The notes below the pieces were generated by a model. It was not told the DNA's origin, did no database searches, and was given only the letters and a program-made list of their open reading frames with translations. Source: Asterias amurensis (Eukaryota > Echinodermata > Asteroidea > Forcipulatida > Asteriidae). From it: DNA of 64,000 nt. Position numbers and translations under genes: made by a program. Where the stretch lies: assembly GCF_032118995.1 (NCBI RefSeq), contig NC_092667.1:418931-482930 (forward strand), given 5' to 3'. Below, one piece after another: positions 812 to 59,230 of this stretch (positions are counted from its first letter, which is position 1; each line of letters starts with the position of its first letter).

Positions 812-1136
812 AATATTGAGCATTGATCAGTCTTCACTAATAACATCCCAAAGCAACACCAACATGTATCAGCCATCTCTAAAACAGTGGTATGAAGACC
901 GGAAGAGGTTAAGGGTCGTATATGATCATTCCCGGGCAAAACCAGTTGAGAGGAAGAACAAAATCAAGAAGAGTAGACAGGCGGCTTTCAAATCTGCATT
1001 AGCAGAGAGGACAACGCCATCGAGACAGTATCAAGACACCAAGACGAACACGTCAGATTCATCATTGGGCATAGAACAATGCAGAGCACAAGCGAAAAGG
1101 TACCGTAGCTTTGGTACATTCACTCAAACAGAATAA
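812..1136 (+). CDS. Possible terminal coding exon of an unidentified upstream gene
   Basis: The reading frame is open from a good acceptor (a T-rich stretch then CAG ending at 811) to a TAA at 1134-1136. It encodes about 108 hydrophilic residues, rich in Lys, Arg, Ser, Thr and Gln, with a strongly basic middle (KNKIKKSRQ) and no membrane segment. The stop codon lies inside an AATAAA hexamer at 1131-1136, which could double as the poly(A) signal. I recognise no family. If real, it is the last exon of a gene that begins to the left of the window. The alternatives are a chance open frame or a 5' exon of something else. It is not part of the NLR downstream because it ends in a stop. Confidence 0.35.
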
Positions 1137-2402: not shown

Positions 2403-5400
2403 AGACGAAGCCTTATCCAATAAATTCAAGGAAACTCATCACATGATACAGATCTTTATCAAGACGCCCATCAACCCCAAAACCCTCTGTTTACGACTCA
2501 ATCATAAAACAACCGTCTCCGACCTAAAAGACATCATTCACAGGAAGTTGGGCATTCGTCCTGCATTGCAAAATCTGTACACGAACAACAAAAGGTTCAA
2601 GGTAGGGTCTACATAACACGAATTTGATGTACCTGAAAGGAATATTACATAATAGGGGACTTTCGGGACGCTTGGTGGCAGCAGACTTACCAGGTAAAAT
2701 CCATATTGGGTGCGTTCGTTTAGCTTCCCTGGGCCGACCCCGGTGTGTGGCGTTTTTTTTTTCACAGGACGAACGTGTGCAGATAATTACCCACGTTCGT
2801 CCGGAAAAAAAAACCCGCCACACACCGGGGTCGACCCAGGGAAGCTAAACGAACGCACCCAATGTTTTCGGTAATGCGCGCATGCTCAGAACAACATAAA
2901 CAATGACAATAGACCTTTTCGCAAATACTGGGGCGCGCGCGTAAAGCTTGGAATTAGGTGCATTGTGGTCTAGCTGATTACAAATTTGATTCATATATAT
3001 CCCACAATGCACCTCATTCAACAGTCTGCGCTTGCGCATTGGTATTTGCGATAAGGTCTATTCACCTGGTAAGTCTGCTGCCACCTAGCGTTCCAAAGTC
3101 TCCCATTGATTTTTGCACAAAAAAAGGTGCTGGCAGTGTAAGCGCTTCATGGTATCCACCATATACATGTACATAAACTTCGTCGCCTACAATCTGTCCA
3201 AAATGCCGCCGCGAGATTACTTACAGGTACCAAAATATCTTCACACATCTCTCCTATTCTACATAATCCCCACTGAGTTCAATACAAGATCATCCTTCTG
3301 ACATTCAAGGCTCTCCATGGACTAGCCCTTACCTACATACAGAGCATGCTTCAACCCCGTAGTGTCAAGGGCCGGGAGGTCATCGGGCAGCACGCTCTAT
3401 CAGCTATGGGGATAGGGCATTAATTAGTAAAACGCTCACCGAGCGGTAAACTCAACAAGGGAAATTAGTTTTTCCATCAAAAGGACATTCAGACAATATT
3501 TCAAGGGATATTTTTTCCATCATCATCATATGATTAGACCGTGTAAGTTTTATGTAAATCTGTGATCTAAGCAGATTTTTTTTTACCAATTCTGTAATGT
3601 TCCTTCATAAATTTACTTTTGCATTTAGCATTCTCTCTTGATGAATCACAGTGGTTTGTTTTGTATCTATTCGGGGGAAAGGGACAAGATGGGACCAAGA
3701 GTTATATTTTCACGAAGGTTACTAAATAGACGAACAAATGTTGGCTGTACAACAATTGATGACGGCTCGTATTCTATCTTAAAATTGTATGCAAAGACAA
3801 GTAAGCCTGGTTTATCCGAAGTTAAGCGCAGTTTCGAATGTTTCCCAAGAGTCTGTTGCAAATTTTTCGGAGCAAATTAGCAAAATCGTATCGCATTCGC
3901 AATGTCAGGAAGTATCATGGACCAGGATTTTGTTCTATTTGAGAAGAAAAAGAACAAAGATGAAAACCCGTTACAAAAACAACAGTTAATAAACCAAACA
4001 GAATTGCGAGGATTCATTGAACATCGTTCTAAAAAAAAGTAAAACAAAGGTTTCTTTCCCCTTTATTTTCCAGTTGTGTGACGCTTTGACTCTTCTTGAT
4101 CTTGGCATTAAACCGGAGACAAACATTGATTTAACACTAGCAGAAGGATTGCTTGGTGGCGCCCCAACACGTGAGTAACTAATGCATGTTCATGACGTGT
4201 CAGTCTTTGTGTTACATTGTGTTTTGCTCCACATCCCCACACAGTCAATTGAAATGGGTCTTTTGTTACAGTTTATAATTCATTGATCATCAATAAACCA
4301 AACCAAGAAATAATTCAGCAATATTAACCTCTGAATTTGATTCAGTGACATGTCTTCAAGCCGCGTTTGATTCTTCATATTATTATTTTATTATCTTTTG
4401 TATTAACAAATATTGTGCAAAATAGCTATCATTATAATAGGATTAATTTTGTTGTGTTATGATAATTTTTCTTGGCTGGTGTGTCACTTTGTAAGTTATA
4501 TCAGAAATTCATACACTTGAGTTAATTGAGGCGAGTTCTGGTAAAAATAAGTTCAACCAAAACATACCTGAACAAATGCTTAAAACTAAAACTTACCTAG
4601 ACGACTGCTAACGGCTTTAGCAGGTACATTTTTGTGCAAGGAAGTTGGAGGAACTGTACAGATGACATTCTAGAACCAGGGTCCATACGATGGAAATCGA
4701 AGCATTTGGAATTCCAATCATTCCCCCCCCCCCGAAAGTATACAGCAGATCTGGTTAGTATTTGAGAAGGACATTTTAATAAAATCTCATTACGAAGATC
4801 TTGATAAAGAGGAAGCTTCCAAGTATGAGATTGTTCATTAGTGTTTTACTCTCTTAATGTTTGGCTGGAAGCAGTAGACGAGACATTCCTACGGACTTTA
4901 GCAGTAAACCTCTGCAAGGACTGGCAGCAACTCGCAGTCAAGCTTAAGTTCAGACCAGCAGAGATTGGCAAGTTTGAACGCCTCGCTGAGAGCAACCCAG
5001 AAGAACAGGCTCGTCAGATGTTAGTTTCTTGGTTGAGTGAGCAGCAACCTAATGACAGAGAAGCAGGGGAATGGTTGAGAAGTGCATTAGTTCAAATAGA
5101 TCGTCGGGATTTAGCTGCAAGGATCCCAGGTTAGAATACGGTTGGATTGTTTTGTTTCAACTAATATTGAAACAAACAAACAAACAAACAAACAAACAAA
5201 CAAACAAACAAACAAACAAACAAAACAAACAAACAAACAAACAAACAAACAAACAAACGGACGGACGGACGGACGGACGGACGGACGGACGGACGGACGG
5301 ACGGACGGACGGACGGACGGACGGACGGACGGACGGACGGACGGACGGACGGACGGACGGACGGACGGACGGACGGACGGACGGACGGACGGACGGACGG

Positions 5401-8400
5401 ACGGACGGACGGACGGACGGACGGACGGTCGGACGGACGGACGGACGGACGGACGGACGGACGGACGGTCGAACAAACGATCAAACAAACGATCAAACAA
5501 ACGATCAAACAAACGATCAATCGATCAATCGATCAATCGATCAATCGATCAATCGATCAATCGATCAATCGATCAATCGATCATTCGATCAATCGATCAA
5601 TCGATCAATCGATCAATCGATCAATCGATCAATCGATCAATCGACCAATCGATCAATCGATCAATCGATCAATCGATCAATCAATCAATGGATTTTGCTA
5701 CATACAGACAGGACTGATTTAACTCTGACATTTACATGTGTACCTTCCAAGTAAGGTAACATGAACTATGCAAGTAACGTTTGGGACCAAAATAAATCGC
5801 AGCAGTATTTTATTATATACTACAATATATTTGTCAGATTCCTTTATACTAATATGTGGTTGTCATTCTTCTTGCAGGTTATGCACCCACATCCCCAAGA
5901 GCAGGTACCAAGAGGCAGTCACCGGAACATCAGTCTGATGCTTCAGGTATTGATGGGAACAAGTTACGTGTCCCTGAGGCAGACAAGACTGATTTGAAAC
6001 AAACCTCAGGTATACCTGCCAATCCCATGAACTGTCAGCAATACGCTGAAACACGTAAAACGCCGCGACAGGCATATGACATGTATTTTGTTACAAATCT
6101 TTTACGATAAAACCCTTTTTGTTGTTGTCATTCTTCTTGCAGGTTATGTACCCACATCCCCAAGAGCAGGTAGCAAGAGGCAGTCACCGGAACATCAGTC
6201 AACATCCAATGCATCAGGCATTAATGAGATGTTTGGAGTCGTAGCTGAGAATATTGGCAAAAATTGGACGCAACTCGGCAATTTTTTAGGCATTAAAGCT
6301 GCAAACATTGACACATATCCAATTGACCATCCAAATGACGTAAGAGAACAGGTGTATCAAATGCTACTTGATTGGGTCAGGACACAAACAAGCCAAAAGG
6401 AGGCTGAAGACGGGCTGATCGAGACGCTCGTCAAACTCGGCCGTGCTGACATTGTCCAAAAATTACCAGGTAAGTGAACCACACCTTTTGTTGCTCCTGT
6501 TTGTCCCCATGGAACATACGTTGGTGCCCATTGGCTACCTTGCTAGTAAAAATTGCTAGCGACACGTACGTCTTTGCCTCACTACGAATTATGTCAGCAT
6601 AAAATGAATAAAATGCAGACGAGATATATTAATAAATAGGCTATATATAGGATTTTGAAAGGTTTGCGGTAACACCATAAATGACTATCTATATGATGAG
6701 TTGTGGTTCTGAAAGAGCCGTTGGTTTCAACTCGACGTTGATTAGTATGCTCTGATCATTTTCTGGAGAGAGCTGGGATCGAATATAAGATTGAATAAAA
6801 CGCAACTTCTGGTTGTTTTTCTCCCTTACAAGGTTATGCACGTACATCCCAAGGAGCAAGTAAGATAGACGGAGTTCACAGCAGGAAGCTTAAGGAGCAT
6901 CAGACAATAACTGATGTACCAGATATCGATGAGAAGAAGTTAGGGGACATAGCTAAGCATATTGGAAAAGATTGGAAGAAACTTGCCAATTCTTTAGGTG
7001 TTAAAGTTGCACAGATTGACACATATCAAAGCGACTACCCAAATGACCTAAATGAACAAGTCTTCCGGATGCTACTGGACTGGTGTAGACATGACCAAGA
7101 GGCGGCTGAAGACGGGTTGAAGGAGGCGCTTACAGTAATCGACCGTGCTGACATTGTCAACAAAATATCAGGTACGTAAATCACATCCACGGTTCTAAAT
7201 GTCCCTAAGGGGACCACAATTGATTGTATTTGTAACAGTTTTCTGGGATACCATTTACACAAATCTCAAACTGAGAAAAACCCCAACACCACTTGGCCAT
7301 TAGGATTAATACATGTCTTAAAGACATTGGTAATTGTCACAGACCAGTCTTCTCACTTAGTGTATCTCAACATGCATAGCATAACAAACCTGTGAAAATT
7401 TGAGCTCAATTTGTTGTCGAAGTTGCGAGAAAATAATGAAAGAAAAAACACCCTTGACACACAAAGTTGTGTGCTTTCAGATGCTTGATTTCGTGACCTC
7501 AAAATCTAATTTTGAGGTCTCAAAATCAAATTTGTAGAAAATCACTTCTTTCTCAAAAACTATATACGTCACTTCAGAGGGAGCCGTTTATCACAATGTG
7601 TTATACTATCAACCTCTCCCCATAACTCATAACCAAGTAAGGTTTTATGTTTTTTTTTGGAGTAATTGCCAATAGTGTCCACTGCCTTTAAAGTGATCCC
7701 CTGGAAGTGCAACCTTTGTGAAAGCGACCTCTCTTGACTAATCCTCCTTTAGTCCATGTTTGTTCCCCATAGTATGAGACAGAATCCCCGGCGGACAGAT
7801 TTCCCTGTGATACCTGGTTGAAGTCCCGAACCAGGAGATTTGTCTTTGTTTAACGCAGAATAATTATATTTGGGTACAGGTTTGATGGGGCTACCATTCA
7901 ACAATGAGGCATGCACTCAGACTTTGGTGAGTCATTACAAGGAGACGCTGAAAGTGAACACACACCCCACACGTAAGGATCTAGCTGTTGATATGGATCA
8001 ACTTTATGTTTCTTTAGAACTTCTGCAAGAAACAAACAAACCTGATCAGCCCCTCACATTGCAGTCAGGTTCAATTAAAGGACAACATAAAACAGACCAC
8101 ACAGTGCACCTTGACATTGAAGGCGCACCCGAGACCGATCAAACCCAAACAGAGTATAAGAAAATTCCCCTTAAGTCACACGAAGACATGTTAAGCTTTG
8201 ACAAGAACAGAATCTTAATCACTGCTGAAAGTGGGTATGGTAAATCAACGCTTCTAAAGAAGATAGCTTATGACTGGGCTGTTATACAGAGTAATACTGA
8301 TCAATCGACTCTCCAAAAACAAGAATCGCCCCTGTCAAAGTATAAGCTCGTCTTTTTGTTGGAAATAAACAAAATGGAGGTCAATTTCAACGTTATGGAT

Positions 8401-11400
8401 GAGATATTTCATCAAATATTGCCTCCAAACGAATTTGGGAAAAAGACTCTCAAAAGTTATATGACGAAACACCCAGAGAAAGTTCTCATCCTTCTTGATG
8501 GAGCGGACGAAATCTCCTTTCAGACACTACAAAATGCAAACGAAGAATTCAGTGTTAACAATGTCCTTTCATTCAAGTCGCTAAAACGCTGTAAGGTAAT
8601 TGTAACAAGCCGACAGTCAACGGCGCTAAAGTTACTGACTTGCAATTCCAATTTCACAAGAGTGAACATAGTTGGGTTCGATGACAATAATAAGAAAGAA
8701 TATATCCGTAAATACTTCAGCAATTACAACTCCCAACACCATGATCATGTTCTTTCTGAAATAAATAAGTCTGAAACACTCAGCAGTTTAGGGGAGATCC
8801 CTCTGTTTCTTTGGTTGATGTGTTCATCATTGACACAGGCTGGAAGTCGACTACCTGGCAGGATTACAGAACTGCTTCATCTCGCAATCAGGGTATTCTA
8901 TGACCAAAAGATTGGCAAAGATTGTAAATCCAACTCCTCCGAGAAAATAACCATAAAGAGTTTTAATGAGCTGATGGCCAAACTTGGGAAGGTTGCTCTT
9001 GAATGTTCGACGTTACAAGGGCACGGAAAAAATGCCTTCGCAGTTTCAGAGTTTGATTCAGAGGACCTTGTCAATTTGGGATGTGAAGTCGGCTTGCTGA
9101 CCCGAGTGCAATCCACGCACGGTTTAGACAAGGTTCATCAAGTCCGATTCCACCACATAATATTAATGGAGTTTTGTTGTTCCGTTTACCTGTCTGATAT
9201 GACAGAGTCCAATCCTAATAAATTTAAAGAGTACATGTCAAAATTGTTAGACGGAGACGTGAAAAGAAATGAATACTTAATCCGTTTCTGCAGCGGGGGA
9301 AACAAAAAAGCTGCAAATTTCGTTATAGAACTGACCGAAAAACACCTATCAGTTTACAATAAAAACACTCCCGTTGAATGCGAAAGGTATGTCTGTTTAC
9401 ATAGGATAATGATGTTGGTTTTGTTTGAAGCCAAGCTTGGTGTGACTGTAAAAACCCTCGCGATGGATGAGTGGGTAAGATTCCCATATGAGCTGAAAGG
9501 AGAAGACCTCTTGGCTGCATATTATTTCATTCAAAACCTACCAGAACGATCCAGTCTTCATCATGTTTCTGATATAACGATATCGTGTCAAGGAACAACC
9601 GAGTTAGATCTCCTAGAACAAATAATGGCCAGAACAAGGTGTGATTTAGCATTAGAAATAGTTGGTGTCAATATGAACGACAAGATTCATCAACTCAAAA
9701 ACATTTCTAAAAGTTTAACATCGCTTAAGTTAAGAGATTGTCAGTTAAACTGCATCTCTGTCCCTCAACTTTTCAGGTCATTTCAATCAGCTACAAAATT
9801 GAAGAAAGTGTATTTGGTGGGAAACAACTTGCACGGTTTGAAATCAGACCAGATACCTCGTATCCCTTCCCTGTGGTTCTTAATGCTAGACGGATGTAAG
9901 CTGACGAAGGATGACATTGGGTCAGTTTTCTCCAGCGTGGCTGCTGCAGGTAGTGTGACGAGACTTGTTCTAGAGGATAACGATCTCCGTGGTATTAAGG
10001 GGGACCAGATAACTCCCGTTTCTTCATTGAAGTCATTGTATATACACTCATGTGGCATACAGAGTGATGATATTGGGTCAGTTTTCTCCATCGTGGCTGC
10101 TGCTGGTAGTGTAACGACACTTGTTCTAGAGGATAACGATCTCCGTGGTATTAAGGGGGACCAGATAACTCCCGTTTCTTCATTGAAGTCATTGTATATA
10201 CACTCATGTGGCAATACACTCATGTGGCATAAAGAGTGATGATATTGGGTCGGTTTTCTCCATCGTGGCTGCTGCAGGTAGTGTAACGACACTTGTGCTA
10301 AAGGATAACAATCTCCATGGCATTAAAGGGGAACAGATAACTCCTGTTTCTTCCTTGAAGGAATTGCGTCTGAACACATGTGGTATACAGAGGGATGATA
10401 TTGGTTCAGTTTTCTCCATCGTGGCTGCTGCAGGTAGTTTAACGACACTTGTTCTAAAGGATAACAATCTCCATGGCATTAAAGGGGAACAGATAACTCC
10501 TGTTTCTTCCTTGAAGTTATTGCATCTATACGCGTGTGGTTTACGGAGTGATGATATTGGTTCAGTTTTCTCCATCGTGGCTGCTGCAGGTAGTGTAACG
10601 ACACTCGTTCTAAATGAAAATGACCTTCATGGTGTTAAAGGGGAACAGATAACTCCTGTTTCTTCCTTAAAGGAATTGCATCTCTCTATGTGTTGTTTAC
10701 AGAGTGATGATATAAGTTCAGTTTTCTCCATCGTGGCTGCTGCAGGTAGTGTAACGGGTCTTGCTCTATTTGAAAACGATCTCCATGGTATCAAGGGGGA
10801 CCAGATAGCTCCTGTATCTTCCTTGAAGATATTGCATCTGTACGAGTGTGGTTTACGAAGTGATGATATTGGTTCAGTTTTCTCCATCGTCGCTGCTGCA
10901 GGCTGTGTAACGAAACTTGTTTTAATAAAAAACGATCTCCATGGTATTAGGGGAGACCAGATTACTCCTGTTTCTTCCTTGAAGGAACTGAATCTCTACG
11001 TGTGTGGTTTACAGAGTGATGATATAGGTTCAGTTTTCTCCATCGTCGCTGCCGCAGGAAGTGTAATAACACTTGTTCTACATGGAGATAATCTCAATGG
11101 CATTAGAGGGGTCCAGATAACTCCAGTTTCTTCCTTGAATGAATTGCATCTTGACTCGTGTTGTATACAGAGTGATGATATTGGGTCAGTTTTCTCCATC
11201 GTGGCTGCTGCAGGTAGTGTAATGACACTTGTGCTAAAGGATAACAATCTCCATGGCATTAAAGGGGAACAGATAACTCCTGTTTCTTCCTTGAAGGATT
11301 TGCGTCTGAACGCATGTGGTTTACAGAGTGATGATATTTGTTCAGTTTTCTCCATCGTTGCTGCTGCAGGTAGTGTAACGGCACTTTTTCTTATAGATAA

Positions 11401-11899
11401 CAATCTCCATGGCATTAAAGGGGAACAGATAACCCCTGTTTCTTCCTTGAAGGAACTGCATCTCTACTTATGTGGTATACAGAGTGATGATATTGGTTCA
11501 GTTTTCTCATTCATGGCTGCTGCAGGTAGTGTAACGACACTTGTTCTAATAAAAAACGATCTCCATGGTATTCAGGGGAACCAGATAACTCCTGTTTCTT
11601 CCTTGAAGGAATTGCATCTCTACGCATGTGGTTTACAGAATGATGATATGGAGCCAATTTTCTCCATCGCTGCTGCTGCAGGTAGTGTAATGAGACTTGC
11701 TATAAAGGATTTCGATCTCCATGGTTTTCAAGGGGACCAGATAGTTTCTTTCGAGGAGTACTTTAGCTTGACCGATCGTGGTCTGCAGAAGGTAGACTTT
11801 GAGACACTTTTTCTGGCCAGGAATACGCAAATCCAGGAGTCCGTTCCTTTGAGGTCAACGGCCAGCTTTACTTTATTACAGAGGTGTAACATTTTGTAA
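2403..11899 (+). CDS. NLR family immune receptor: ubiquitin-like, three DEATH domains, NACHT, LRRs; frame broken in the LRRs
   Basis: Exons: 2403-2601, 4074-4170, 4875-5129, 5878-6009, 6143-6469, 6833-7171 and 7880 onward. All have GT-AG borders and the phases join without a stop. ATG 2443 is the chosen start because the ubiquitin-like fold begins exactly there. Domain order from that Met: ubiquitin-like ~1-85, DEATH ~86-170, linker, DEATH ~235-323, DEATH ~350-436, NACHT with Walker A AESGYGKST (~552-560) and Walker B LLDGADE, then LRRs of 52-residue modules. Known NLRs are cytosolic sensors that oligomerise through NACHT and signal through DEATH partners; this role is inferred. A 16-bp duplication at 10198-10229 puts a TGA at 10237-10239, giving about 1,222 aa. 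The LRR frame resumes at 10208 and runs to TAA at 11897-11899. It may be a pseudogene, a null allele or an assembly error. Upstream noncoding exons may be missing. Confidence 0.82.
2706..2862. mobile_element. Foldback element family E (nested)
   Basis: Almost perfect palindrome: TTGGGTGCGTTCGTTTAGCT at the left, its reverse complement at the right, with T/A homopolymers flanking a GACGAACGTG hairpin centre. A longer copy lies at 49935-50308 and a fragment at 13141-13330. Confidence 0.75.
2910..3060. mobile_element. Foldback element family G (nested)
   Basis: Ends TAGACCTTTTCGCAAATAC and GTATTTGCGATAAGGTCTA, with inner arms around GGTGCATTGTGG / CCACAATGCACC. Inserted in family F. Confidence 0.65.
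3105..4073. other. Remainder of NLR intron; no gene supported
   Basis: Contains a degenerate repeat fragment (3480-3605) resembling 47405-47525. Short open frames at 3638-3989 have no homologous look and lack a consistent splice structure. Nothing else is supported. Confidence 0.4.
4875..5129 (+). other. First DEATH-like domain exon of the NLR
   Basis: Phase-1 exon encoding about 85 residues. It has the DEATH-domain signature: LAVNLCKDWQQLAVKL (helix 1-2 with the conserved Trp), FERLAESNPEEQARQML, then W of VSWLSEQ and a final helix ending RDLAARIPG. DEATH domains mediate homotypic assembly. This copy is the most diverged of the three. Confidence 0.8.
5170..5690. repeat. Compound tetranucleotide microsatellite in NLR intron
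   Basis: Consecutive arrays: (AAAC)n about 5170-5256, (GGAC)n about 5257-5468, a 12-bp AAC-AAA-CGA-TCA unit about 5470-5519, then (GATCAATC)n about 5520-5690. It lies in the intron after the first DEATH exon. The long open frames across it are artefacts of a 4-bp (12-bp) periodicity. Confidence 0.95.
5878..6469 (+). other. Linker exon and second DEATH-domain exon of the NLR
   Basis: Exon 5878-6009 is a hydrophilic linker. Exon 6143-6469 begins with almost the same 20 residues (GYVPTSPRAGSKRQSPEHQS) and then a DEATH domain with NIGKNWTQLGNFLGI and MLLDWVRTQ. The acceptor-side intron sequence is also shared, so the linker exon looks like a partial tandem copy 265 bp upstream. Confidence 0.8.
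6655..6780. repeat. Half copy of foldback family J
   Basis: AAAGGTTTGCGGTAACACCA through TGCTCTGATCATTTTCTGG matches one arm of the complete copy at 31724-31953. It is in the intron before the third DEATH exon. Confidence 0.5.
6833..7171 (+). other. Third DEATH-domain exon of the NLR
   Basis: Starts GYARTSQGASK, related to the starts of the two preceding exons. It then carries a DEATH domain with HIGKDWKKLANSLGVKVAQI, MLLDWCRHDQ and an end DRADIVNKISG. It is closely related to the second domain (the IDTY motif and RADIV end are shared), so exon duplication is likely. Confidence 0.82.
7318..7691. mobile_element. TTAA-ended MITE, family A
   Basis: Starts CTTAAAGACATTGGTAATTG and ends CAATAGTGTCCACTGCCTTTAA (split here as CAATAGTG + TCCACTGCCTTTAA). 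It is in the intron before the NACHT exon. The left end lacks a few bases of the consensus (GACACTA). Confidence 0.7.
7880..9700 (+). other. NACHT NTPase and winged-helix region of the NLR
   Basis: One exon. The pre-NACHT segment LVSHYKETLKV and DLAVDMDQLYVSLEL is typical of invertebrate NLRs. Walker A (8224-8250) reads AESGYGKST, Walker B LILLDGADE starts near 8485, the sensor-1 strand CKVIVTSRQ is at 8592-8618, and the motif IPLFLWLMCSSL is at 8800-8835. The key Lys, Ser/Thr and Asp residues are present, so NTP binding should be possible. Confidence 0.85.
9910..11797 (+). repeat. Twelve tandem 156-bp LRR modules
   Basis: The motif GATGATATT (GATGACATT in the first) recurs at 9910, 10066, 10238, 10394, 10550, 10706, 10862, 11018, 11174, 11330, 11486 and 11642. 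The spacing is 156 bp except for one gap of 172. Each unit codes 52 residues, two ribonuclease-inhibitor-like LRRs (LVLxxNxLHGI and LxLxxCGIQSDDI). Units are very similar; the stretches 9964-10057 and 10120-10213 are virtually identical. The last unit decays after about 11745. Confidence 0.9.
10198..10229 (+). repeat. 16-bp tandem duplication causing a frameshift in the LRR array
   Basis: ATACACTCATGTGGCA occurs twice in direct succession (10198-10213 and 10214-10229), while the neighbouring module has it once at 10042-10057. The extra 16 bp shift the frame by one and create a stop at 10237. The open LRR frame continues downstream without another stop for about 1.65 kb. Confidence 0.9.
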
Positions 11900-54390: not shown

Positions 54391-54474
54391 GCACAACTCG
54401 TAGCAGACATCTGCACAAACTTTGTTCAAGTATTAACACCATCATCAGAAGTGTAACATTTAAATTTGACAAGC

Positions 54475-55317
54475 ATGTTCACCGCACTGTTGATTGTGAC
54501 CATCTTGGTCAATACTGTTCCGTCGTCGTATTGCGTCTACTCAGGTTGTTCAACCGAATCAATTGACAACATTGATGACCTTCAAATACAACAAATCATG
54601 TCCCAGAGATCTGTTATTGAAGAAATTGAACGAAATCCGCAACTCTTGTCCAATGCCACACACCATAAATCATTTGTGACACTCACTCCTCGGCAGAACC
54701 AGCAGATTCTGAGAAAGTACCCCGCGATATTCAGGGATAATAAGTCAGTCCTAACCTCTTCATCGACAATGGGGACTGAAACGACGGCTCAGATATGCCC
54801 GCCTGAACCAATACATAGACGTCTTGTCTTGGCATTTACTCCGGAAGGACAACTGGTTCAACTCTTGCAGGTAAGTAACGGGTTTCCTTCTATTGCGAAA
54901 TAGGTGTTGGGATTGTTTTGCTGGGTTGTGGAGTAAATCAGCAGGAAACCGGTCCCATTCAGTGAACATATACTCCGATTTTCAAAAATCTATAAATGAG
55001 CTTCCCGAATTTTCAAAAACTTTGTTTCACGTCGTTCAATACCATCAGTGTAGGCTACCAATCGTGATCATAAACTACCATATTATGCCACACTTTACTA
55101 TTGTTTGTTATAGATGCCTGAACAAAATGATAACCAGTTGATTTTGGAAGAAACCTGCAAGGACGAGGTTTCATTCGGCAAGATATGCCGTGTAGTTGAG
55201 CGCGTTGTGATTGCACTCTTTGTTAATTTAAGCCGTATAGTGGAGACGGGTGGTACTAACGAGGACTTCGACCTCTCCCATGTGATCGTACAGTACTGTG
55301 CAGCTTTTGAGCCATAA
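54475..55317 (+). CDS. Small secreted cysteine-containing protein, copy A
   Basis: Two exons, 54475-54870 and 55114-55317 (stop TAA), joined in phase 0 into 199 residues. The N-terminus MFTALLIVTILVNTVPSSYC is a clear signal peptide. A polar middle follows with a glycosylation site (SNAT) and a basic segment near RKYPAIFRD that could be processed. The C-terminal part has four spaced cysteines: ICPP, ETCKDE, KICRVV and a final QYCAAFEP. The block GQLVQLLQ, then QLIL, then C, then C, then a hydrophobic strand, then VIVQYC faintly follows the spaetzle/trunk cystine-knot pattern, but the cysteine count is low. The function is unknown, and a secreted ligand is only a guess. A TATA box lies 85 bp upstream. 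An ATTAAA in the duplicated 3' flank may serve for polyadenylation. Confidence 0.75.
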
Positions 55318-58292: not shown

Positions 58293-58385
58293 ACATAACA
58301 ACTATCTCGGATCAGACCACTTGTAAAAAACTTTGTTCGAGTTTTACCATTATTATCAGAAGTGTGACAACTAAAAAATACAACC

Positions 58386-59230
58386 ATGTTCACCGCACTG
58401 ATAATTGTGACCATCTTTGTTAACACTGTTCCGTCGTCGTATTGCGTCTACTCAAGTTGTTCTAATTGTCCAACCGAACCAATTGACAAATTGAATGACC
58501 TTCAAATACAACAGATCGTGTCCCAGAGATCTGTTATTAAAGAAATTGAACAAAATCCGCAACTCTTGTCCAATGCCACATACCACAGATCATTTGTGAC
58601 ACTCGCTCCGCGGCAGAACCAGCAGATTCTGAGAAAGTACCCTAAGATATTCAGGGACAAGAAGTCAGTCCTTACCTCTTCATCGACAATGGGGACTGAA
58701 ACGGCATTGTGGCAGATATGCCCGCCAAAAGGAGGATCTGATCCTCTTGTCATGGTATATACGGAAGGACAATTGGTTGAACTCGTGCAGGTAGGTAACG
58801 GGTTTCCTGGAATGGGTGTTTGGATTGGTTGGGTGGGTTGTGGAGTCATTAACTTGCTAAACAGGAAACTGGTCCCATTCAGTGAACATTATATTCGGAA
58901 AATCTATTTAAGCTTCCAGAAGAAAACAAAAACAAAAAACCATTGTTTAACACCGTTCCATCCCCATCTATGTAGGCTAGATGATAAACTACCCTTTTGG
59001 GCCACAATTTACTATTGTTTTTATAGATGCCTGAACAAAATGATAACCAGTTGATTTTGGATGAAAGCTGCCAGGACGAGTTTTCGTTCGGCAAGATATG
59101 CCGTGTAGTTGATCGCATTGTGCCCGGACTCTTCATTAATTTAAGCCGTATAGTGGAGACGGGTGGTGGTAGCGAGGACTTCGACTACTCCTATGTAGTC
59201 GTACAGTACTGTGCAGCTTTTGAGCCCTAA
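58386..59230 (+). CDS. Small secreted cysteine-containing protein, copy B (paralog of A)
   Basis: Two exons, 58386-58790 and 59027-59230 (stop TAA), phase-0 intron at the same place as in copy A, 202 residues. The signal peptide MFTALIIVTIFVNTVPSSYC is nearly that of A. The N-terminal mature part has an extra cysteine pair (SSCSNCP where A has SGCSTE). The C-terminal cysteines ICPP, ESCQDE, KICRVV and QYC are all kept. Exon 2 is the better conserved half, ending in EDFDYSYVVVQYCAAFEP. Homology with A runs from the TATA box through roughly 260 bp of 3' flank, so the two arose by tandem duplication about 3.9 kb apart. Family unknown; a spaetzle/trunk-like fold is a tentative idea. Confidence 0.75.

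Follow-up and report, generated by a model that had tools for sequence, protein, structure and literature searches.

A ubiquitin-like domain with a diglycine tail encoded ahead of DEATH-NACHT-LRR and other STAND genes in a sea star

The window, a 64,000-nucleotide stretch of the Asterias amurensis genome, carries on its forward (+) strand, to which all positions below refer, a gene for a ubiquitin-like (Ubl) domain, three DEATH domains, a NACHT domain and leucine-rich repeats (LRRs). Two exons encode the Ubl: 2403..2601 (entry phase 2, exit phase 0), in which the Ubl proper begins at an ATG at 2443 (MIQIFIKT...NNKRFK), and 4074..4170 (LCDALTLL...AEGLLGGAPT; exit phase 1). They are followed by DEATH domain 1 (4875..5129), a 44-amino-acid linker exon (5878..6009, phase 1-1), DEATH domains 2 (6143..6469) and 3 (6833..7171), both recognized by Pfam and by paralogue comparison, and an exon for NACHT and the start of the LRR array (7880..10239), which ends at a TGA (10237-10239). 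The NACHT domain itself (8212..8724; residues 548-718 by Pfam) corresponds to genome place C20:427142-427654. Counted from the ATG at 2443, the seven exons have GT-AG junctions throughout and entry phases of 0, 0, 1, 1, 1, 1 and 1, and the spliced model from the Ubl methionine is a single frame of 1222 amino acids. The earlier note on this DNA had proposed that exon phases join the Ubl, the three DEATH domains and NACHT in one frame, as they do, and its order of Ubl-DEATH-DEATH-DEATH-NACHT-LRR agrees with Pfam, phases and paralogues, except that it omits the linker between DEATH 1 and DEATH 2. Elsewhere in the window, at 54-59 kb, a pair of ORFs looked secreted and, by eye, cytokine-like, but Pfam gave no support. 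In the same assembly, COX1 on the 16-kb contig reads STNHKDIG, the conserved form, under genetic code table 9 and STKHKDIG under table 5 (tables 9, 2 and 5 were compared), which agrees with an echinoderm, and the ND1/ND2 orientation agrees with an asteroid.

A further coding exon, U (864..1099), lies upstream. It consists of an ATG plus 78 codons, encodes a basic sequence and ends at a phase-2 donor (AG/GTACCG). Positions 812..863, behind an acceptor AG at 810-811, are probably its 5' UTR, and similarity to three paralogues starts at window positions 791, 800 and 818. Because exon U splices in frame onto the Ubl exon at 2403, the Ubl is internal, which rules out the proposal that it forms the extreme N-terminus of the protein. 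U precedes the Ubl in all 12 copies of the gene family to which the window gene belongs (family A, below), one of them frameshifted. Its conserved part is a basic module of ~45 residues that matched no Pfam family, and a comparison of U and of one family-C frame (L039) with NCBIfam returned nothing informative.

Searches with HMMs for Ubl, DEATH and NACHT domains all scored above Pfam cut-offs. The 85-amino-acid Ubl piece matches the Pfam ubiquitin family PF00240 (E 8.4e-8, 32.3 bits), and the same match within the whole 1222-amino-acid model scores 26.5 bits, the curated cut-off being 25.4 bits. Pfam Death matches the window model in three stretches (E 5.1e-39, 132.7 bits together), of which DEATH 1 alone reaches 43.2 bits (cut-off 22.6), and NACHT scores 71 bits (E 1.4e-19; cut-off 26.7). 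A DEATH 1 profile built from 10 family-A and 2 C16 sequences matches the death domains of PIDD, RIPK1 and FADD. DEATH 2 and DEATH 3 are 47% identical to each other, and the copy number of the linker exon differs between paralogues.

The two Ubl exons recur in 26 places of this one genome: 12 in family A, which is like the window gene (Ubl-DEATH-NACHT), 12 in a second NLR family (family B) and 2 ahead of TRADD-N/SAMD9-like frames (family C). These counts leave out the C9 polyubiquitin repeats, the RPS27A exon at C1:14724077, weak single-exon matches on C4, C6 and C19, and DEATH-only matches. Exon U lies ahead of 23 of the 26 Ubl pairs and was not found before 3 of the 12 family-B copies. In every copy checked (12 from family A and 2 each from families B and C), the Ubl intron falls at the same residue in phase 0 and the cassette exits in phase 1; the U donor is in phase 2 in all 7 copies read. 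Assigned to a cassette by strand and distance, a NACHT domain lies at most 9 kb downstream on the same strand in 9/12 A and 11/12 B copies. In family C, long, mutually similar frames follow both Ubl copies: in L039 the frame contains a TRADD-N match, and for L040 the matches are to structures of SAMD9 (E 9.8e-92). Neither a NACHT nor a SAMD9-like frame was found near 4 of the 26 pairs, and in one of these (B_5024) the Ubl exons are 8.4 kb apart and their pairing is assumed. In the two family-B copies scanned, Pfam found no DEATH domain in the long middle ORF, to which that scan was confined. Since the domain order recurs in paralogues, it is more than chance. Domain order, exon phases, conservation and the reuse of the cassette before three STAND classes are thereby established as features of the genomic sequence. 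Beyond what the earlier note covered, the locus and its relatives thus present exon U, a break in the LRR frame, a gene family, a second NLR family, a SAMD9-like family and possible protease cutting.

All 26 Ubl copies keep the tail G-L-[L/M]-G-G, which in the window copy is GLLGG (codons at 4146..4160). The domain ends in the LxGG found in processed ubiquitin and Ubl precursors, and this motif is a candidate site for a ubiquitin or Ubl protease. The codons of this motif differ synonymously among copies, and the residues around it are variable (TLAE, RQVA, QLVP or SIGP before; APT, TRK, CRK or GIK after). A hinge or gene conversion could also account for retention of the Gly-Gly. The exon pair recurs 26 times, always with this tail, which rules out a chance match of short exons. 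The Ubl is 35-39% identical to the genome's own ubiquitin. An origin from FUBI, whose gene lies at C1:18118-18119 kb, is not favored: in genome searches with the Ubl, which score best candidates only, FUBI exons are absent among the matches listed, whereas polyubiquitin and the RPS27A exon are present.

Purifying selection acts on the Ubl, with a dN/dS of 0.29. In comparisons between family-A paralogues, which may carry a gene-conversion bias, dN/dS is 0.197 for U (7/12 copies, without five whose U is frameshifted or incomplete in the stretch covered), 0.288 for the Ubl and 0.283 for NACHT. The DEATH domains give 0.411 for DEATH 3 (without L024), 0.567 for DEATH 1 and 0.925 for DEATH 2 (without L024, where it is split, and L027, where it is partial); the single second DEATH domain of L025 and L031 was also left out.

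The LRR array, which Pfam also matches, had been described as long and as running to 11899. The repeats are present, but only the first of them share the NACHT frame: a 16-bp unit present twice in tandem (10198..10229) shifts the frame, the TGA follows, and the remaining array (10187..11899; 570 amino acids, 10 repeat motifs) is in another frame. Because the frame breaks at 10239 after the duplication, the end at 11899 is out of frame. The window copy is probably either failing or the source of a protein whose LRR array is cut short. That it is a pseudogene or a haplotype-specific broken copy, its paralogues alone being functional, is a substantial possibility, although we lean against it. The interrupted LRR frame points that way, as does an open NACHT frame of 791 amino acids compared with 1224-2404 in 7/9 NACHT-bearing family-A places. 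However, every exon from U to NACHT is open with good junctions, and dN/dS of the window Ubl against its paralogues is 0.13-0.30. Moreover, truncated LRR products can work, and the duplication may be a matter of assembly or allele.

We tentatively read the window gene, with slightly less than even confidence, as a cytosolic STAND receptor of the DEATH-NACHT-LRR type with an N-terminal regulatory U-Ubl cassette that a protease might cut after the Gly-Gly. In such a receptor, the LRRs would sense, NACHT would oligomerize and the DEATH array would bring in death-fold partners, while the U-Ubl head might restrain the receptor or mark it for partners from the ubiquitin system. A ubiquitin- or Ubl-specific protease could then cleave behind the Gly-Gly and free the head from the receptor, in the manner of ubiquitin-ribosomal or FUBI fusions. 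Compared with ubiquitin, the Ubl has a tail that is extended by two residues and devoid of the ubiquitin arginines, and any particular deubiquitinase might therefore reject it. Similarly, ubiquitin readers need not bind the Ubl, because at the position of ubiquitin Ile44 the copies carry Tyr or Val, with Ser in a single one.

The head might instead remain uncut and, along the lines of the earlier note, act as a permanent dock for ubiquitin readers, E3 or deubiquitinase partners or the proteasome that controls receptor stability or assembly, with the Gly-Gly serving as a flexible hinge. Many permanently fused Ubls exist, and both the Pfam ubiquitin match and the purifying selection on the Ubl suit such a role. 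We nevertheless consider it rather unlikely, since a motif invariant in all copies, set in a variable tail and followed by very different exons, exceeds what a hinge needs. Alternatively, the Ubl might be a bait or tripwire: pathogen ubiquitin or Ubl proteases would attack the look-alike tail, and a receptor that lost its head would become active, much as NLRP1 is tripped by viral proteases. The conserved LxGG and the use of one head type before both NLRs and SAMD9-like STAND proteins are consistent with this idea; NLRP1 tripwire sites, however, change fast whereas the site here is invariant, and we consider the idea improbable. That the U-Ubl exons form a separate gene and the DEATH-NLR begins at DEATH 1, as one family-A copy (L022) with U and Ubl and no later exons within the 9.2 kb examined might suggest, is very hard to reconcile with DEATH 1 on the same strand and in the same order in 11/12 A copies, the shared phase-1 exit, and a second Ubl exon without a stop before its conserved donor.

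Returning to a cuttable cassette, we can extend the idea speculatively to the whole set. U and a diglycine-ending Ubl may form a shuffled sea star cassette that has come to precede DEATH-NLRs, NLRs of other kinds and SAMD9-like STAND proteins. A host or pathogen Ubl protease would remove it, and several receptor classes might share head loss, or the released Ubl modifier, as a signal of activation or warning; we regard this extension as doubtful. Whereas ubiquitin is known to regulate innate immunity in trans, a Ubl encoded within the receptor gene, and perhaps cuttable, would place the link between ubiquitin and immunity in cis, and U-Ubl-headed receptors could be a new way to wire innate immunity to the ubiquitin system. 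The Ubl head reaches beyond this gene: three STAND immune classes in one genome are preceded by related exons that share the Gly-Gly tail and, where checked, the phases.

Receptors of the DEATH-NACHT-LRR kind are already known. Passages on echinoderm and cephalochordate DEATH-NACHT(-LRR) receptors, namely NLRD (PMC11508797) and the C. heheva NLRs (PMC8913654), describe the same placement of DEATH domain(s) before NACHT and LRRs, and lineage-specific expansion, but do not mention the U-Ubl head of the window gene. The listed matches of a full-text literature search included no described form with such a head or cassette; the earlier suggestion of an undescribed form therefore stands to that extent, although it concerns a multigene family rather than a single gene. 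TRADD-N multidomain proteins of marine invertebrates, expanded in starfish, are reported to join death-fold, TRADD-N and effector domains in lineage-specific fusions, with polyubiquitin in the list of fusions (PMC8195603); family C shares the TRADD-N match, whereas the relevant passages there describe neither NLRs nor SAMD9-like proteins with a U-Ubl cassette. Family C also resembles SAMD9/SAMD9L through the L040 frame, and differs in having U-Ubl and TRADD-N exons in front. In bacterial FtsH-ternary conflict systems, parts of one study describe Ubl-EAD1 fusions from which its authors propose that a JAB peptidase releases the Ubl (PMC7159879). There too a Ubl is joined to a death-like adaptor in NTPase-centered immunity with proposed proteolytic release, but those systems are bacterial, with a dedicated E1/E2/E3/JAB set, and offer an analogy only. 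Ubiquitin-eS31 (RPS27A) and FUBI-eS30 fusions likewise consist of an N-terminal ubiquitin fold ending in GG and a second protein, and in eS31 fusions, as in family-B and family-C tails, basic residues come after the motif; here, unlike in these fusions, the U module lies upstream, the partner is an immune receptor and the Ubl has diverged from ubiquitin to the extent given above. In favor of cutting, a profile of the Ubl scores ubiquitin-eS31 fusions at up to 52.5 bits compared with ~48 for single natural ubiquitins, but an engineered ubiquitin variant, at 52.4 bits, is level with the fusions.

The cassette that heads the DEATH-NACHT-LRR receptor gene of the window consists of a basic exon, U, and a ubiquitin-like domain (Ubl) encoded by two exons and ending in Gly-Gly. 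This cassette is shared among receptor families of Asterias amurensis, and is of more interest than the single window gene, whose LRR frame is broken. The gene lies in the window, C20:418931-482930, of a genome of 491.5 Mb in 23 contigs. From the Ubl onward, seven exons set by GT-AG borders form a single frame of 1222 residues that starts at a methionine at 2443. The earlier note had placed a ubiquitin-like domain, three DEATH domains, NACHT and LRRs at 2403..11899, and these domains are borne out by the in-frame exons and by Pfam. The HMM searches it had proposed for Ubl, DEATH and NACHT match all three: ubiquitin at 32.3 bits in an 85-residue piece and 26.5 bits in the whole model (cut-off 25.4), Death in three stretches summing to 132.7 bits (DEATH1 by itself, 43.2 bits), and NACHT at 71 bits; LRRs are matched too. 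Against solved structures, phmmer relates the window Ubl to ubiquitin, with single ubiquitins at E ~2e-5 to 1.4e-4 among the matches listed; the scores of polyubiquitin chains are inflated by repetition. A DEATH1 profile of twelve sequences (ten of family A, which comprises genes like that of the window, and two from contig C16) matches the death domains of PIDD, RIPK1 and FADD.

The ends of the proposed span did not hold. Coding begins upstream, in exon U (ATG 864), and the NACHT-LRR exon frame stops at a TGA (10237-10239) located 3' of a tandemly duplicated 16-bp unit; the LRRs continue in a different frame and reach 11899. Open NACHT frames are 1224 to 2404 amino acids long at seven of the nine family-A places with NACHT, the short ones being the window (791) and C18:11138915 (507). 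Also overlooked was a linker exon between DEATH1 and DEATH2 (5878-6009; phase 1-1, ~40-44 residues, GYAPTSPRAG...). Its copy number among paralogous loci ranges from none (L025, L028, L031) to six (L027, L030), and copies are likewise noted in L024, L026, L027 and L030. By eye, a compound tetranucleotide repeat of ~530 bp (5161-5690; CAAA, ACGG and ATCA units) sits in the intron that separates DEATH1 from the linker, and the intron within the Ubl holds a long, MITE-like inverted repeat (~2700-2870; GGGTGCGTTCGTTTAGCTTCCCTGG... and its reverse complement). A non-LTR retrotransposon-like stretch, whose ORFs resemble endonuclease and reverse transcriptase by eye, lies ~3 kb 5' of the ATG (L009:4543-7976, which is C20:413473-416906).

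Exon U was recognized as a stretch (791-1140) with 88-90% identity to sequence 5' of the Ubl in three paralogues. Twelve aligned copies, some partial, have in common a donor AG|GTA at 1099, past which weaker, gapped similarity continues for ~35 bases. The frame from ATG 864 is spliced in phase 2 onto the Ubl exon (...AQAK-R-DEALSNKFKETHH-MIQIF).

Searching the genome with Ubl and DEATH1 (E up to 10) returned 114 matches. Both Ubl exons occur at twelve family-A places (the window, ten on C18 and one on C3), with 83-100% identity to the window Ubl in exon 1 and 94-100% in exon 2. Exon U precedes all twelve, frameshifted in L024. DEATH1 is present at 11 of the 12, the exception being L022, where U and Ubl stand alone and no DEATH1 was found within the 9.2 kb fetched. 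NACHT lies downstream on the same strand at nine; none was found within the 9.2-9.6 kb fetched at L022, L027 and L030. DEATH exons number two (L025, L031), three (window, L021, L023, L026, L028) or three plus a partial fourth (L029); the set is more complex and partly broken in L024 and incomplete in L027 and L030. Two DEATH-NACHT genes at C16:13485421 and C16:13494629 (L032, L033), possibly a headless outgroup, have DEATH1-like exons at 47-48% identity and no Ubl match.

Genome searches with the Ubls of families B and C brought the Ubl pairs to 26: 12 in A, 12 in B and 2 in C. Family B, a second NLR family, resides on C2, where ten copies fall within 4.77-5.03 Mb and the other two at 9.68 and 19.11 Mb; one pair (C2:5024953 with 5016499) is assumed, since its exons are 8.4 kb apart. 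Of the 12 copies, 11 have a same-strand NACHT no more than 9 kb away. Pfam scans of two B loci match NACHT and LRR; their long middle ORF gave no Death match. Among the B-like Ubls, the one that diverges most (C2:9675243-9682682) lies 7 kb ahead of NACHT, retains a GLLGG tail, has Arg for the Cys of LCD, and has no U match before it. Both family-C copies are on C14 (15.89-15.93 Mb; L039, on the minus strand, and L040), where similar TRADD-N-like and SAMD9-like frames follow U and Ubl. TRADD-like_N matches in L039 at 27.4 bits (cut-off 23.7). The long frames (1606 amino acids in L039; 1574 in L040, running to the end of the sequence fetched) have no significant Pfam family, and that of L040 matches SAMD9 structures at E 9.8e-92. 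By coordinates, a Ubl pair lies upstream of 21 of the at least 58 NACHT matches found by a search that scored the best candidates.

Exon U also extends beyond family A. Queried with the family-A exon, the genome yields weak matches (E 1.4e-4 to 6.6) in front of both C Ubls and nine of the 12 B Ubls; a further match, on C4 at E 0.15, is unrelated. For control, 6,261 ORFs from the window and loci were scored against a profile built from four A sequences; the six fetched B and C exons scored E 3.9e-9 to 8.4e-4, and the next best ORF 0.16. Reciprocally, a B/C profile recovers the A copies, with no further match at an E of 1 or less. P4, L6, H22, K31, I34, S37, A41, F42 and S44 (window numbering) are identical in all ten aligned sequences. 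Splicing is equally uniform: the seven U copies read all exit at AG|GT in phase 2. Across 12 copies of A and two each of B and C, the Ubl intron is in phase 0 at an identical residue and the cassette exits in phase 1. The cassette could therefore be joined to any phase-1 module, such as the DEATH and linker exons.

The Ubl ends in G-L-[L/M]-G-G in all 26 copies, which were extracted with a pattern that did not demand Gly-Gly. Of 89 alignment columns (the final two run past the donor in family A), 17 are invariant, four of them the tail's G, L, G and G; flanking residues differ between copies, and the tail codons differ synonymously. Nei-Gojobori dN/dS among family-A copies free of stop codons is 0.197 for U (7 copies, five incomplete or frameshifted ones being left out), 0.288 for Ubl (12) and 0.283 for NACHT (9). 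It is 0.567 for DEATH1 (11), 0.925 for DEATH2 (7; split in L024 and partial in L027, both omitted) and 0.411 for DEATH3 (6; L024 omitted), the single second DEATH of L025 and L031 also being set aside. These values indicate that constraint on the Ubl is close to that on NACHT and stronger than that on the DEATH domains. An origin from an eS31-type fusion is weakly hinted at: ubiquitin-eS31 fusions reach 52.5 bits (positions 2-87) against a five-Ubl profile and single natural ubiquitins ~48, but an engineered ubiquitin variant also scores 52.4.

Judged from sequence, the architecture and the family are very probably as described. In the favoured reading, the gene encodes a DEATH-NACHT-LRR receptor with a regulatory U-Ubl head that a ubiquitin or Ubl protease could remove after Gly-Gly. 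The Ubl probably serves contacts with the ubiquitin system; the cutting is slightly less probable than not, and could activate, stabilize or merely mature the receptor.

Known relatives include DD-NACHT proteins of amphioxus and urchin (excerpts of PMC2575513) and sea cucumber NLRs, 24 of 53 with death/DED domains and, in the available portion of that report, no mention of Ubl (PMC8913654). The earlier note knew of no described form with a ubiquitin-like head and three DEATH domains. No Ubl-headed NLR was recognizable among the matches listed in a full-text search, judged by titles, abstract openings and term counts; subscription literature (mostly), annotated proteomes and the 2006 sea urchin immune gene survey (cited in PMC8913654) fall outside its scope. 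TRADD-N is reported to be expanded in starfish, and the fusions reported alongside include polyubiquitin (PMC8195603); thus ubiquitin-domain fusions in invertebrate immunity are as such already known. The literature covered also includes PMC11508797, PMC13133943 and PMC7159879. The cassette is a real and conserved N-terminal variation on known STAND receptors, undescribed as far as the literature searched shows.

Elsewhere in the window, two similar ORFs (54472-54900 and 58383-59051) that start MFTAL(L/I)IVTI(L/F)VNTVPSSYCVYS appear to be secreted duplicates, and have no significant Pfam family. Contig C23 (16,427 bases) carries mitochondrial genes. Among the code tables tried (9, 2 and 5), echinoderm table 9 renders its COX1 as STNHKDIG, table 5 gives STKHKDIG, and table 2 breaks the frame. 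The ND1 and ND2 frames are on the opposite strand, which is the sea star mitochondrial arrangement.
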